Source: Dehalococcoidia bacterium
Lineage (GTDB): Bacteria > Chloroflexota > Dehalococcoidia > Dehalococcoidales > UBA3254
Length of the DNA: 64,000 nucleotides
Reading direction: 5' to 3'
NCBI GenBank assembly: GCA_025361145.1
Contig: JANYAV010000002.1
Coordinates: forward strand, 1 to 64,000
Positions within the stretch are counted from its first letter, which is position 1; each line of letters begins with the position of its first letter. A model generated the notes under the pieces. That model was given only the letters and a program-made list of their open reading frames with translations. It searched no databases and had not been told where the DNA came from. Below, piece after piece: positions 43,704 through 48,910 of this stretch. Made by a program: the position numbers and the translations under genes.

Positions 43704-43791
43704 TGGCGGATGGGGTGGGATTCGAACCCACGGTACCTTGCGGTACGGCGGTTTTCAAGACCGCTACCATAGACCACTCGGACACCCATCC
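43704..43791 (-). tRNA. tRNA-Ser (anticodon TGA), attachment site of the 43.7-48.7 kb element
   Basis: A complete class II tRNA on the minus strand: acceptor GGATGGG/CCCATCC, anticodon stem GCGGT/ACCGC with loop CTTGAAA, a long variable arm (CGTACCGCAAGGTACC) and an encoded CCA. It reads UCA. Its 5' half (43753-43791) is repeated exactly at 48623-48661, so an integration event renewed this half of the gene. Confidence 0.96.
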
Positions 43792-43834
43792 TTGTAGCTA
43801 ATATTCTTTTATGAATGCTCGCTACTTTGTCAAA

Positions 43835-43855
43835 TGGCACTAAATTGGCACTAAT
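43835..43855. repeat. Paired TGGCACTAA motif, left end of the element
   Basis: TGGCACTAA occurs at 43835 and again 11 bp later at 43846. The same pair with the same spacing is found near the other end (48495 and 48506). Possible integrase or excisionase arm-binding sites. Confidence 0.6.
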
Positions 43856-43912
43856 TGAATTCAATGACACAAATTTTTAGAACTCATCGACAAATAGCAA
43901 GACACGTTTGTC

Positions 43913-43941
43913 ATTATAACTATTAGATTGGATTTCGTCAA
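43913..43941 (-). promoter_or_regulatory. Element-borne sigma70 promoter now driving tRNA-Ser
   Basis: On the minus strand TTGACG (43936-43941), a 17-bp spacer and TATAAT (43913-43918). It points at tRNA-Ser 122 bp away. A near-identical promoter lies beyond the other att copy at 48741-48769, apparently the displaced original. Confidence 0.75.
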
Positions 43942-44103
43942 AAGTTTTTACATAAATAATCCAATATAAATGAATGTGTAAATATCAATTCACAAATAGT
44001 AGTTGAGAAGAAGTGAGGTTGGCGCAGTTAGCAAAGAAATAATTTAAGGTGATTAAATTAGAAATATGGGTTTAGTACAAATCAACGACTATTTGGTCGT
44101 ATA

Positions 44104-44517
44104 CTATTTTTGTCTTCGTTTCCCTATTTCAATTATGGCTGCTCCCACAAACCAAAATAAAAGTAACACTCCCGCAATTATTGAAGGATACTTAAAATCG
44201 AAGTCATTTATGTTACTTAATTTCATGGTATATGTAAAAAAGACTAAGCCAACTATAAAAATAGTCATCCAACGAGGGTCATTCTTAAATTCAAATATTA
44301 GATCAAAAAACGTACGACCAACTGTTGTTTTAAATATATGCGAACTATTTGAAGCCTTGAATTCTTCTTGATCGCCATCATCATAAGAATCTTGATTAAT
44401 GTCAGTCTGTTTTTCTTCATCACTAACAATATTATGATTTTTATCACCAGGGATTCTTGTCGGTGAATTATCAAATTCATCAATTGTTGTAGTGGTAATT
44501 CGTCGTCTGATTGCCAT
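44104..44517 (-). CDS. Two-helix membrane protein in the element
   Basis: A 137-residue protein: about 70 polar, acidic residues (rich in Asp, Asn and Thr) lead to two C-terminal membrane helices (MTIFIVGLVFFTYTM and SIIAGVLLLFWFVGAAI). The gene starts 3 bp after the stop of the 240-residue gene, so they form a two-gene operon. Not recognised. Confidence 0.65.
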   Translation of the reverse strand: MAIRRRITTTTIDEFDNSPTRIPGDKNHNIVSDEEKQTDINQDSYDDGDQEEFKASNSSHIFKTTVGRTFFDLIFEFKNDPRWMTIFIVGLVFFTYTMKLSNINDFDFKYPSIIAGVLLLFWFVGAAIIEIGKRRQK

Positions 44518-44520
44518 TAT

Positions 44521-45243
44521 CTAGAGCTCCAATGAGTTTGCAGTATTCTCAATTTTGTCCCATATTAAACGAACAGCCTCATTTAAAAGCTTAGAAATGG
44601 AAGCAATATCTACATCTTTAGTCTTAAAGACGTCAATATCAAAAAATAAACCGCATTTATTAAAATAACTTGATTCGAAGTTAAAAAAAGGTACAACTTC
44701 TTTTTCATGCATAGGTCCCACAGAAACTTTTACTTGAAATTGTCCGTCTATAATATCGAAAATTAATTGTAAGTTAGTTTGTTTTCCACTTACTAAAGTT
44801 TTTACCTTGTCTGTATAATAGGTCGAGAATAATAATTCATTTATCTGATCGAAACTTCTATTGGTAGGGACAAAAGTCTGGGTGCGACAACCAAAACGAA
44901 TAACCTTTGTTATTTTGTAATAATCGTTTTTGTTCAATCCTTTCCAATAAGCAGAAGCTTTATCAACAAAATAATTCCGAGTTTGAGGATTATTTACAAT
45001 ATAACCGGCACTTTTATACCCTGCAAAAGCACCCTCTAGCTCGATTTTGTTGGATTGGTCTGTGAAATTAATTATATTAGAATCAATTTTCCAGTGAGGA
45101 AAATAATTATTGTTCTTTATATAATCTGCAACAAATCCGCGAACATCCAGAAATGCGCCAACGGGTTCATGCCTTACTTCCAATATATGTTGAGCTAGCA
45201 TTACTTTATCTTTCGCTGTCTTAAGTGTATGTTGTTCTTTCAT
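44521..45243 (-). CDS. Hypothetical 240-residue soluble protein in the element
   Basis: Mixed alpha/beta, no membrane segment and no catalytic motif I can name. The C-terminal part (LFFDIDVFKTKDVDIASISKLL, then WDKIENTANSLE) somewhat recalls the sporadic TIGR04255 family, whose proteins occur in mobile or defence-related places; this likeness is weak. It is the first gene of a two-gene unit with the membrane protein at 44104. Confidence 0.65.
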   Translation of the reverse strand: MKEQHTLKTAKDKVMLAQHILEVRHEPVGAFLDVRGFVADYIKNNNYFPHWKIDSNIINFTDQSNKIELEGAFAGYKSAGYIVNNPQTRNYFVDKASAYWKGLNKNDYYKITKVIRFGCRTQTFVPTNRSFDQINELLFSTYYTDKVKTLVSGKQTNLQLIFDIIDGQFQVKVSVGPMHEKEVVPFFNFESSYFNKCGLFFDIDVFKTKDVDIASISKLLNEAVRLIWDKIENTANSLEL

Positions 45244-45384
45244 TATTTTCCCCCGGTTTAGTCATGATATTTTCAGCAAGAATAACTCGATTATTGGTTT
45301 GTCGCCATCATATTAGCATTAAAGTATTGCAGACACAAGATCCTCAGGTTTTAACTAAAATATTTAGAAATTGATATCAAGATG

Positions 45385-45580
45385 TTATTTAATTGTTTGT
45401 AAAGATACAAACGCTTCATCAAAGCTCTTAGCAGCTGTCGCCTGCATACCTGGAGTAACGTGGCTGTAAGTATCGAGAGTGATTTGTATCGAACTATGTC
45501 CAAGTCTTTCTTGCACTATTTTGGGGTGAGGGTCACGCAAACCTAATAATTCAGATCGTCTTGATGAGTGTACCTCTCAT
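45385..45580 (-). pseudogene. Tyrosine recombinase (integrase) C-terminal remnant
   Basis: A frame without a start codon ends in LRDPHPKIVQERLGHSSIQ, then TLDTYSHVTPGMQ, the box II His and nucleophile Tyr of tyrosine recombinases. Upstream the frame breaks near the LRH motif (a stop codon and shifted bases at about 45580-45600), and no N-terminal part is seen. The rest of 45244-45806 holds nothing else that I can support. Confidence 0.82.
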
Positions 45581-45827
45581 AATTTACGCCTCCGGTATAC
45601 CTAATCATTAAGATGATAACATAAATGAATTATAGGTGTATTAAAGGTTCTTATCAATCGTGGCCAGTGTGCCAAACTTGATTACGTGTTCGGACTTGCA
45701 ATAATTTCACATGACTAGCTTCCGTTCATCGATCATAAGACAAGACTAGCATATGAAATGCCAAATGTTAGGTAAAACAATGTTTTAATTGTGTTAAAAT
45801 TAGAAAATGCCTAAGAAGGACGTAATA

Positions 45828-46352
45828 ATGAAGAAATTTTTCAAGGATGTATGGAAAGAATTTAAAAACAAGGGAGAAACGATAGGTTTAATTTTTTGTG
45901 TAATCGGATTTATTATCCTTATCGTAACAGGAGCATGGAACTTATCTAAAAGTTTAGAATTATTAGGCGTATCTCTCGGTTTATTATCCCTTGGTCTTGC
46001 AATGATATCTTTAGGGATGTCCGACAAATCAGATATTCGTTATACGGAAATACTAACTCGATTAGATAAAAATGTTTCTAAAGTACTTGAATATTATCCA
46101 TCGGATAAAATAGATATCCCACATGGCTCATCAAAAGATGTAGTCATTAAAGCACCCATCGCTGAGGCTTTTGTCAAAGGCTATGTGCCTGAAGTGACTA
46201 TTAAACCTGAATACTCTATTGAGATAAGTAAGATAAAAGCTCAAGCGAGGCTTGATGCTGATACCATGAAAGTTGGGTATGTAAGAGGCGAATTATACCA
46301 GATTGAAGATGGTAGTTGGGCCATACACTGGGGCGGAAAATATCAGTTGTAG
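45828..46352 (+). CDS. Membrane-anchored protein of unknown function in the element
   Basis: 174 residues from the ATG at 45828, which has AAGGA nine bases upstream; the ATG at 45807 would add seven residues. Two membrane helices (about residues 18-65) are followed by a soluble tail containing DIPHGSSKDVVIKAP and ending ELYQIEDGSWAIHWGGKYQL. Not recognised. Confidence 0.6.
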   Translation: MKKFFKDVWKEFKNKGETIGLIFCVIGFIILIVTGAWNLSKSLELLGVSLGLLSLGLAMISLGMSDKSDIRYTEILTRLDKNVSKVLEYYPSDKIDIPHGSSKDVVIKAPIAEAFVKGYVPEVTIKPEYSIEISKIKAQARLDADTMKVGYVRGELYQIEDGSWAIHWGGKYQL

Positions 46353-46589
46353 TATCACCGTACCAATCTGGATTGATTCGTAGGGTACCAAATATTAGTT
46401 TGCCTTTAGCCTAATGTCGGTGTAAAATATTATAGAAAATTTGAAAAGCAGTTAAGAAGGGAAAAAGGTTTACAATTCATATAGGTTTATTATATAAAGG
46501 ACAGCTACAAGCATATATGAAGTAGGCACTCTAGAGCAGACAGAACATAAATTGATAGAGTAAATTTCTACTTTGTACGCTGAAAATCC

Positions 46590-46725
46590 CCTCTCTACCT
46601 AATAAGAGTTATTAGGTCGAAAGTTCAACGAAGAAGTTGCAGGAAACTACTTAATGCGTTAAACGCATAGCGAAGGATCGGGTTTAAATGAGCAGGATAG
46701 TCTAACGGACTATCCTGCTTTTTTT
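46590..46725 (+). ncRNA. Candidate structured RNA in the element
   Basis: No gene fits 46353-46747, but this part carries three strong hairpins: ACCTAATAA/TTATTAGGT (46597-46617), ATGCGTT/AACGCAT (46654-46668) and the terminator at 46691. The 5' end is unknown and may lie further upstream. It could be a separate small RNA or a leader of the excisionase-like gene. I do not recognise a known RNA family. Confidence 0.4.
46691..46725 (+). terminator. Strong intrinsic terminator before the excisionase-like gene
   Basis: AGCAGGATAGTC, a five-base loop (TAACG), its exact complement, then seven T. It ends the candidate RNA and lies 23 bp before the next start codon. Confidence 0.92.
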
Positions 46726-46747
46726 ATTAAATATTTAGGGGTGAATA

Positions 46748-46918
46748 ATGGAACCAGAAAAGAAAGTAATAACCGAAAAAGAATTATCCGAAGCATTGGG
46801 AATATCAATAAATTTTGCTTATAAAGAAGTGCGGAATGGCAATATATTTTCGGTCAAGTGTGGCGATCGCTATCTAATACCAGTAAAATCTTTATATCGG
46901 ATGTTGTCCGTTGAGTAA
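46748..46918 (+). CDS. Excisionase-like helix-turn-helix protein
   Basis: A 56-residue protein: VITEKELSEALGISINFAYKEVRNG is a MerR/excisionase-type helix-turn-helix (here ELSEALGIS and FAYKEVRNG) and RYLIPVKSLYRML is the usual following wing. Such proteins bind DNA to direct excision or act as small repressors. It has AGGGGTG upstream. It supports the mobile nature of the region. The following gap 46919-47375 is AT-rich and holds no gene I can support. Confidence 0.78.
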   Translation: MEPEKKVITEKELSEALGISINFAYKEVRNGNIFSVKCGDRYLIPVKSLYRMLSVE

Positions 46919-47375
46919 GCAAAATAGGCAATATGGGCGGTCGGCGCAGCCTCCGCCGAAAAAGCAATATGGTATTATCAAGAAGCATATCTTATTTCTG
47001 GCTCAAAGCGTTTTTTAAACAGATTAATTTACATAGAATCCGATCTTAAAGCTAATATATCTATCCCTGGAGGCTATAAAAGAAGACTAATTGATAGTGC
47101 TAGAGATTTTATTAAGTGAAATTCACAATTTGAATGAATACTGGGTGAAGGAACCAATAATAAGTTTGGTATTGTTGAATTGACCGCATTACAGCCATAT
47201 TCAAGACAAGCCTGGGCGAATATTCCCAAAGCAGTTCCAGCAATTAAGCCCAACAAGAAACTAGAAATAAATTAAGAACTTTACCCATATGACGATATAA
47301 TAACAAAATAAGGAATATATCAAAAATAGGATTTATGGTATATAATTCCTTTAATCGATTTGTTGGGAGGATAAA

Positions 47376-48281
47376 TTGCCTAAAATATTATTCTATTGGT
47401 TATTGTCTATCTTCTTAGCGTTAACCTTTTTAACCAGTTGCGAAGTGCCGAGTAATTCCTCTGTAAATACACTGCCAGTATTTACAACCTCAATCCAGCC
47501 AACTTATAAACCAGCAATTACAAATTTAATAACTACGATACCTAAACCTGTAATCATCGGTTCGCCCACACAATCATCTATTACTTTAACACCACCAATT
47601 ACAACAAGCCCTATAACAAAAATAGAGCCATTCACTGCCAGTATCATTACCTTTCTAAACCTTGAAGCGAAAAAACAATACGCCGTGATTTTCACTAATA
47701 ATACACAAAATATTTTTAAGTTTAGTTGCACCATTAGACAACATGATAATAACGGTAACTATTTATCAGATTATAGTGTTACATCTGACTTCGTACCCGC
47801 AAACACGCATTATGTTTATGTATTACCACGGGAAATAGCCAAGGGTCTTACGATAAGTGACCCACAGATAGTAGGCGTATCACCATCTGCGCAGCCTAAA
47901 TTTGCTATTATCTCAATAAGTAATCTCAGTATTGTCCCTGAGTTAGCTGGGGATAATAGAGGTATCAATTCATTTTCTTATATAACCGGAACGTTATTAA
48001 ATACTGGTACTGTGAATTTTGGAACAGGGGTTAGTGGAGAAGGAATAACACCAAAGTCGATAATTATACAAATATTGAAACGTACTTATGATAGTGGTTT
48101 TACTTTAGCTGCAAGTAGTGAAGCATTATCCTCTCCTGAAGTAAATGGAGTCAGAATTACGATGCCACCTCCTGGAGAACATGTCGTTTTTTATATTCCG
48201 TTATATGAAAGTGTAATTATTAAAGATGCGCAAAAAGCAATAATTGATGGCGAGATCACGATTTTAGCTCCTGGTAGGTAA
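47376..48281 (+). CDS. Lipoprotein of unknown function
   Basis: A 301-residue protein starting at TTG with GGGAGG five bases upstream. The signal peptide ends in a lipobox-like TSC (FLTSCEVP); a Thr/Pro/Ser-rich linker of about 60 residues follows, then two beta-rich parts (residues 95-165 and 170-300, the second reading NFGTGVSGEG and ITMPPPGEHVVFY). Same style as the chromosomal lipoproteins in this window, so possibly native to the host group. Confidence 0.72.
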   Translation: MPKILFYWLLSIFLALTFLTSCEVPSNSSVNTLPVFTTSIQPTYKPAITNLITTIPKPVIIGSPTQSSITLTPPITTSPITKIEPFTASIITFLNLEAKKQYAVIFTNNTQNIFKFSCTIRQHDNNGNYLSDYSVTSDFVPANTHYVYVLPREIAKGLTISDPQIVGVSPSAQPKFAIISISNLSIVPELAGDNRGINSFSYITGTLLNTGTVNFGTGVSGEGITPKSIIIQILKRTYDSGFTLAASSEALSSPEVNGVRITMPPPGEHVVFYIPLYESVIIKDAQKAIIDGEITILAPGR

Positions 48282-48494
48282 AGGTCAAGATGGACAAAAT
48301 TTAGCCTAGTTCGCAAACACTAATTTATTAGGTAATTTGCTGCCATTTTGATGACTTTATTAAAGTGATTCTAGTATCGAGTAGTTTTAACTTGAAATTT
48401 ATGCTAACAGAGAGTTTTAGTGATATGTACTGCTAGGCACAAAGTAACGATAATTGAAGACTTCGAAGCCAGTGGTTGAGTATTAGAAAATTAA

Positions 48495-48515
48495 TGGCAC
48501 TAATTTGGCACTAAT
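48495..48515. repeat. Paired TGGCACTAA motif, right end of the element
   Basis: TGGCACTAA at 48495 and 48506, the same 11-bp spacing as at 43835/43846. The gap 48282-48622 holds otherwise only AT-rich sequence. Confidence 0.6.
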
Positions 48516-48622
48516 GCTTTTCTATAGAGGGTTAAAAATAGGGTTATTTGAGGCTAAAACAAGAATAGGCACGAAGTAAGAGTTTAGCTTTAAAAACAGT
48601 AGAAAACTAGGCTAGAGACAGA

Positions 48623-48661
48623 TTTCAAGACCGCTACCATAGACCACTCGGACACCCATCC
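48623..48661 (-). repeat. tRNA-Ser 5'-half fragment (distal att copy)
   Basis: 39 bases identical to 43753-43791. The sequence stops at the anticodon loop and has no 3' half, so it is not a functional tRNA. Confidence 0.93.
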
Positions 48662-48740
48662 ATGAAGCATAAAACCCAAATATTAAGGTTAAATCAACGC
48701 TGAAATAACACCCATAATTGGTATCGAGGACACGCTTGTC

Positions 48741-48769
48741 ATTATAACTTTTAGTGCATGCTTCGTCAA
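48741..48769 (-). promoter_or_regulatory. Displaced original tRNA-Ser promoter
   Basis: TTGACG (48764-48769), 17 bp, TATAAT (48741-48746) on the minus strand, with bases around the -10 (GTTATAATGACAA) shared with the element-borne copy. It now points only at the tRNA fragment. Confidence 0.7.
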
Positions 48770-48910
48770 AGAAGACTATGTGTTGGTATGTTCATCTCGA
48801 TTTAGATGTGCTAGTGTGCATCATAAGTCTGACGTCATTTTAGGGAGGACGTCATAACACTTCTTTTTCTTGGTTTTATCTTGAGGTTTTCTTAAACAAA
48901 TTGCTTGCCG

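Follow-up and report, generated by a model that had tools for sequence, protein, structure and literature searches.

Integration of mobile elements into the 5' halves of tRNA genes is known but rare. The system of Zhao and Williams (2002), as cited in PMC6563490, uses the 5' part of a tRNA gene for recombination, and by that account the element must therefore restore the 5' end of the gene. In the Thermococcales, the archaeal pTN3-like integrases rebuild a tRNA away from its own promoter, and the tRNA is then expressed from the promoter of the integrase (PMC8371274, PMC5495485). The dusA-associated islands replace the 5' end of a gene by island sequence, with putative -10 and -35 boxes before and after integration (PMC4482086). 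In the tRNA-dependent lysogeny of mycobacteriophages, the phage carries a complete tRNA gene and does not rebuild that of the host (PMC10865867). Here we describe an integrative element in the tRNA-Ser(UGA) gene of a Dehalococcoidia bacterium (assembly GCA_025361145.1), the window analysed being the first 64,000 nucleotides of contig JANYAV010000002.1. It is probably a decayed member of a Dehalococcoidia tyrosine-recombinase family, in much of which a promoter directed at the tRNA lies within the last codons of the integrase gene, and the rebuilt tRNA of the window is probably driven by the remains of such an integrase tail.

A tRNA gene assembled from two halves

The working tRNA-Ser(UGA), called by ARAGORN and by Rfam, was the only complete gene of its kind found in a search of the genome, which has tRNA-Ser(GGA) and tRNA-Ser(CGA) at other places, and for this reason it is presumably essential. 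Its positions 1-39, the last of which is the end of the anticodon loop (stem GCGGT, loop CTTGAAA), are repeated exactly at the far end of the element. The first-pass annotation had taken this duplicated 39 bp for the 5' half of the tRNA, starting from the anticodon loop, and both the exact repeat and the tRNA calls agree. In the flank upstream of the two halves 5/7 bases are shared, and the 46-nt match that includes this flank is 96% identical. The duplicated stretch is not the 3' part, as it is in the usual tRNA island, and the element has no tRNA gene elsewhere, its 39-bp core being what rebuilds the tRNA.

One copy of the promoter motif TTGACG-N17-TATAAT lies upstream of each 5' half, and these are the only two such sites in the 64-kb window; if one mismatch is allowed, there are three matches, against 0.36 expected. 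The first-pass annotation was right that both 5' halves have this promoter, although it placed the promoters after them, which is so on the plus strand only: in the direction of transcription they precede the 5' halves. Read along the tRNA, the order is thus promoter, 5' half (48661-48623), element, promoter, 5' half and 3' half, from which it follows that the crossover took place in the anticodon loop and that the element brought a 5' half with it.

Promoters in the last codons of related integrases

A search of the tRNA region against 60 related genomes showed that in many of them a same-strand integrase gene ends shortly upstream of tRNA-Ser(UGA), and several of the genomes have an extra 5' half. 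Four related integrases used as queries then gave 80 genome loci, mostly from Chloroflexota (Dehalococcoidia), and 26 viral contigs. The 3' end of the integrase faces the 5' end of a tRNA in 27 loci (Ser-UGA, Ser-CGA, Arg-UCG, Thr-CGU, Arg-UCU) and the 3' end in 35. Defined by a -35 of TTGAC or TTGAT and a -10 of TATAAT (or one mismatch) at a spacer of 17, an embedded promoter directed at the tRNA is present in the last integrase codons of 20 of the 27 5'-facing loci and in none of the 35 3'-facing ones (Fisher p = 1e-10). A second sample, from the order of the host, had 8 further cases in 5'-facing loci, its 26 3'-facing ones having none, and over both samples the embedded promoter occurs in 27/66 against 0/62. 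The -35 is read in TTT-GAC (Phe-Asp, F-D) and the -10 in TAT-AAT (Tyr-Asn, Y-N), and in this embedded-promoter family about 80 bp separate the end of the integrase gene from the tRNA 5' end. The reading frames of the relatives are whole and end before the tRNA. At three tRNA-Lys loci (L193, L221, L255), the integrase reading frame overlaps the tRNA and stops about 10 nt into it, counted from the tRNA 5' end.

The motif could in principle be conserved for the sake of the integrase protein, its likeness to a promoter being incidental, and F-D is indeed conserved in 3'-facing integrases too. Y-N, however, is absent from the 3'-facing sister integrases, and the choice among synonymous codons is biased towards the promoter in 5'-facing loci (combined p = 2e-4), with no such bias in 3'-facing ones (p = 0.47). 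Variants of the -10 change the protein and keep the box (H-N as CATAAT, Y-T as TATACT, Y-D as TATGAT), and the hexamers persist in scars that have no integrase gene, as described below, so that we regard this explanation as very improbable. On a tree made without the tail, orientation changes nine times and the promoter eight times, with no conflicting independent pair; in a larger tree of 128 short C-terminal segments, not enough pairs were well supported to increase the power.

The stretch from the integrase stop to the tRNA is more weakly folded in 5'-facing than in 3'-facing loci (median -11.8 against -17.3 kcal/mol per 80 nt, p = 0.001), which is consistent with the absence of a terminator between promoter and tRNA; that a terminator was lost in each 5'-facing case is not a claim we make, as the T-runs are too variable. 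Within the 75 nt adjoining the tRNA, the embedded-promoter loci have no better promoter than the 3' controls. This bears on the window, where a proximal TTGACA-16-TAAAAG (43833-43806), or else read-through from upstream, might transcribe the tRNA and leave an integrase-tail promoter unneeded. The proximal site has a perfect -35 and a native-like spacing to the tRNA, and a few 5'-facing loci (L101, L123, L241, L204) do have proximal promoters. Against this, its score of 8.1 is within the range of the 3'-facing controls and below the 9.6 of the distal promoter, and the proximal stretch of intact relatives is likewise at control level only, which makes this reading quite unlikely.

Two complete elements in relatives, one of 6.8 kb at tRNA-Ser-CGA (L079) and one of 6.4 kb at tRNA-Arg-UCG with restriction-modification and Rep-like genes (L077), have the same reversed anatomy as the window, with a whole tRNA at one end and a 5' fragment at the other. 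On their host side the -10 of a promoter, which in L077 is TTGACG-17-TATAAT, lies about 20-25 nt ahead of the 5' half, and at the other end come the integrase-tail promoter, the 5' half and the 3' half. A search within a few kb upstream of each integrase found two second copies of a tRNA half, both of them 5' halves. The same anatomy is seen over 22.6 kb in genome G006: the promoter TTGACG-17-TATACT precedes a 5' half on the host side, and the opposite end has the integrase, its embedded promoter and the whole tRNA. This is probably a complete element, although it may be composite, since its interior also has cobalamin genes and a second integrase fragment. The reading frame ahead of its host-side promoter resembles the end of a seryl-tRNA synthetase gene. 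The element-borne 5' half of G006 (L037:4274-4312) and the displaced host half (L038:6903-6941) differ at 4/39 positions, so that the tRNA-Ser formed on integration there would be a chimera in which D arm and anticodon stem are changed.

A second integrase clade, with the tail MALLDEVL (L010, L012, L018, L022, L226, L230, L231, L234 and others), also faces tRNA 5' ends (Ser-UGA, Leu-UAA, Arg-CCU, Lys-CUU, Trp-CCA), and in its loci we found neither an embedded promoter nor a clear proximal one. Two bins labelled Deltaproteobacteria (L075, L089) have an element of Dehalococcoidia type with an embedded promoter at tRNA-Ser(CGA), through either cross-phylum transfer or misbinning.

Promoter blocks without an integrase gene

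Both promoters of the window can be read as the ends of eroded integrase genes. The host-side peptide FDEACTKSYNDKRVL is identical at 10/15 residues to the intact integrase tail FDEAFTSGYNDRRVP of L094, a comparison in which it ranks first among the 176 F-D peptides of the window, and the element-side peptide FDEIQSNSYNDKRVL is identical to the same tail, the closest intact counterpart of both, at 8/15. An integrase origin is strongly suggested for the host-side promoter and moderately for the element-side one; we go no further in either case because the promoter itself accounts for five of the shared residues. TTGAC-17-TATAAT was found in the window in a relic tail only and not within an intact integrase reading frame, and the window is thus a decayed relative of the promoter-in-integrase elements rather than an intact member.

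Blocks of this kind also occur where no element is left. In three Dehalococcoides genomes (G009, G045 and G075; loci L305, L306 and, in G075, L304) there is no integrase gene at tRNA-Ser(UGA), and the region upstream of the tRNA reads FDAGFASRYNMPA (FDSAFSNRYNVPT in G009) with both hexamers intact, the -35 of the scar starting 198, 184 and 93 nt upstream of the tRNA in the three genomes, with 93 nt in G075. G009 and G045 have 27-28 reductive dehalogenase matches, and G075 is probably D. mccartyi 195, in which the arm-repeat region is lost and a 44-bp block bearing the promoter is 98% conserved. From its sequence, the tRNA-Ser(UGA) promoter of these genomes looks like the relic of an integrase tail. 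A similar scar, with intact hexamers and no integrase gene, is found in L008, and the other genus of the Dehalococcoides family (probably Dehalogenimonas) has ordinary proximal TAAAAT sites. In genome G015, an integrase-tail-like scar of spacer 18 accompanies a 5'-half fragment (L044:10183-10239), which lies about 34 kb from the whole tRNA and in the opposite orientation, suggesting a rearrangement between tRNA copies.

The element-borne 5' half of the working tRNA is as first annotated, and its promoter most likely comes from the element too, given the same anatomy in L077, L079 and probably G006 and the element-free relatives. The pair at 48623-48769 had been taken for the original one, and this we revise. 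It could be so after a single integration, in which 48741-48769 would be the true native promoter and the look-alike of the element would have been copied from a host long ago or have converged on it; the host-side promoter of another element can be TTGACG-17-TATAAT (L077), and the two promoter blocks of the window are alike at 33/42 bases. The host-side -10, however, lies about 80 nt upstream, as against about 15-45 nt for native promoters of tRNA-Ser(UGA), the block matches the L094 tail also at residues not set by the promoter, and there are the similar scars in Dehalococcoides and L008. A single integration is therefore unlikely in our view, and the displaced 5' half and promoter are probably the previous working pair, whose promoter was itself probably not the ancestral one.

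We propose that a tyrosine-recombinase element whose attachment site (attP) carries the 5' half of the tRNA recombines in the anticodon loop. Integration would part the tRNA and its promoter, so that the element has to supply another, which in much of the family would be the one written into the last codons of the integrase (TTTGAC as F-D, TATAAT as Y-N, spacer 17). Integration would join the integrase-tail promoter, the 5' half and the 3' half of the host into a working gene, and since the tRNA is needed, the promoter would be kept as the element decays and the rest of the integrase erodes. The window may show this process twice, the relic tail at 43942-43877 probably driving the tRNA and that at 48770-48729 being probably the tail of an older element. 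In the simplest history the older element would have entered the tRNA and decayed to its promoter, after which a second, itself decaying at present, went into that same loop. We infer this order, as we do that the promoters fire and that the tRNA depends on them, whereas the repeats, the anatomy, the tie between embedded promoter and 5' orientation across the family, and the scars are observed. Taken as a whole, with the element family, the integrase-tail promoter and two successive scars in the window, we consider this explanation highly probable.

Several points weigh against it. Five of the 10 residues common to FDEACTKSYNDKRVL and the L094 tail are, as said, set by the promoter, the other integrase relic of the window element (45385-45528) has no Y-N and is 1.4 kb away from the promoter tail, and the weaker proximal site does exist. 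The embedded promoter is absent from 39/66 5'-facing loci, mostly of another integrase clade, and the independent pairs on the tail-free tree are too few for formal significance. Comparing the flank proteins with the tRNA-Ser loci of relatives gave no syntenic empty site.

More generally, we think it likely, from the loci compared here, that in a lineage of mobile elements a sigma-70-type promoter evolved within the codons of the integrase C-terminal tail, which would be selected both as protein and as promoter, specifically where attP has the 5' half, and that such a promoter can outlive its element as the permanent tRNA promoter of the host, as in Dehalococcoides. If true, this would explain how the cell survives the integration of an element that removes the front of a needed tRNA gene, namely through a promoter that the element carries inside its own integrase gene. 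It would also offer mobile elements a means of rewiring core genes permanently, the element being lost and the promoter kept. As a scar is present in D. mccartyi 195, a cultured dechlorinating organism used in bioremediation, the claim is directly testable there.

Element contents and comparison with known systems

The features of the locus are collected in Table 1. Arm-like repeats lie inside both ends of the element, as expected for a tyrosine-integrase element, and the same TTAGTGCCA repeats also adjoin intact integrases in L094, L049 and L051. The sole integrase trace in the window element is a C-terminal relic, which was not among the matches of a Pfam integrase search of the genome, while the integrases of relatives are intact; for want of one, the element is not expected to move by itself, and an excision PCR would probably fail. 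For most of its open reading frames (ORFs), no function came from Pfam or PHROGs, and an Rfam scan of the element region gave no match besides the tRNA, including at 46580-46748, an intergenic region that precedes the helix-turn-helix ORF and has several short inverted repeats. Elsewhere in the same genome, an intact 3'-facing integrase lies at tRNA-Arg(CCU) on contig C7 (L056/L057), and an integrase remnant lies beside an apparent tRNA-Arg 3' fragment on contig C3 (L058).

Table 1. Features at the tRNA-Ser(UGA) locus, in window positions
Position	Strand	Feature	Remarks
43704-43791	-	Working tRNA-Ser(UGA): element-borne 5' half and host 3' half	ARAGORN; Rfam RF00005, 52 bits
43753-43759	-	Anticodon loop and presumed crossover	
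43753-43791	-	Element-borne tRNA 5' half, 39 bp	Exact repeat of 48623-48661
43806-43833	-	Alternative proximal promoter-like site TTGACA-16-TAAAAG	Score 8.1, inside range of 3'-facing control loci
43833-43855	.	Paired arm-type repeats TTAGTGCCA x2, tRNA-proximal end inside element	Repeat family D4
43877-43942	-	Probable relic integrase tail FDEIQSNSYNDKRVLLFVDEF, then stop, carrying promoter	8/15 residues common to L094 tail
43913-43941	-	Promoter TTGACG-17-TATAAT, presumed driver of working tRNA	Same arrangement embedded in intact integrase genes
44104-44517	-	Element ORF, 137 aa	No family match
44521-45243	-	Element ORF, 240 aa	No family match
45385-45528	-	Decayed tyrosine-integrase C-terminus HPKIVQERLGHSSIQITLDTYSHVTPG...FDEAFVSLQTIK, then stop	83% identity over 42 aa to L043 integrase
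45807-46352	+	Element ORF, 181 aa, probable membrane protein	
46748-46918	+	Helix-turn-helix protein, 56 aa, HTH_17, excisionase-like	E 1.8e-5, 25.4 bits, slightly below curated cut-off
47376-48281	+	Element ORF, 301 aa, possible lipoprotein	
48493-48515	.	Paired arm-type repeats TTAGTGCCA x2, far end inside element	Repeat family D4
48623-48661	-	Displaced tRNA 5' half at far junction	Exact 39-bp repeat
48729-48770	-	Block read as relic integrase tail FDEACTKSYNDKRV, probable scar of older element	10/15 residues, 32/42 bases common to L094
48741-48769	-	Displaced promoter TTGACG-17-TATAAT	

A phrase search of the literature found no report of a promoter embedded in an integrase coding sequence, nor did we find one of a coupling between embedded promoter and orientation across a family, or of promoter scars. 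The system of Zhao and Williams (2002), as far as PMC6563490 describes it, shares the use of the tRNA 5' part, to which the present case adds a whole family, a promoter in the integrase gene and scars. In the archaeal pTN3-like elements, integration splits the integrase gene and the promoter used is the one upstream of that gene, whereas in the bacterial Dehalococcoidia family no such split was found, the integrase staying whole with a separate promoter in its last codons. The dusA islands have a protein-coding target, and the available part of their description does not report the promoter as embedded in the integrase reading frame. The tRNA-dependent lysogeny of mycobacteriophages is another way to avoid killing the host by disruption of a needed tRNA; its defining features were not found in the window, where the tRNA is instead rebuilt from two halves. 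The usual 3'-half tRNA islands and prophages are alike in integrase family, arm repeats and crossover region, but they keep the promoter of the host, their attP contains the 3' half and their integrase tails are without a promoter. The related 3'-facing integrases serve as controls for what would be, in the 5'-facing family, a compact case in which the code for a protein tail overlaps that for a promoter, depending on the orientation of insertion.

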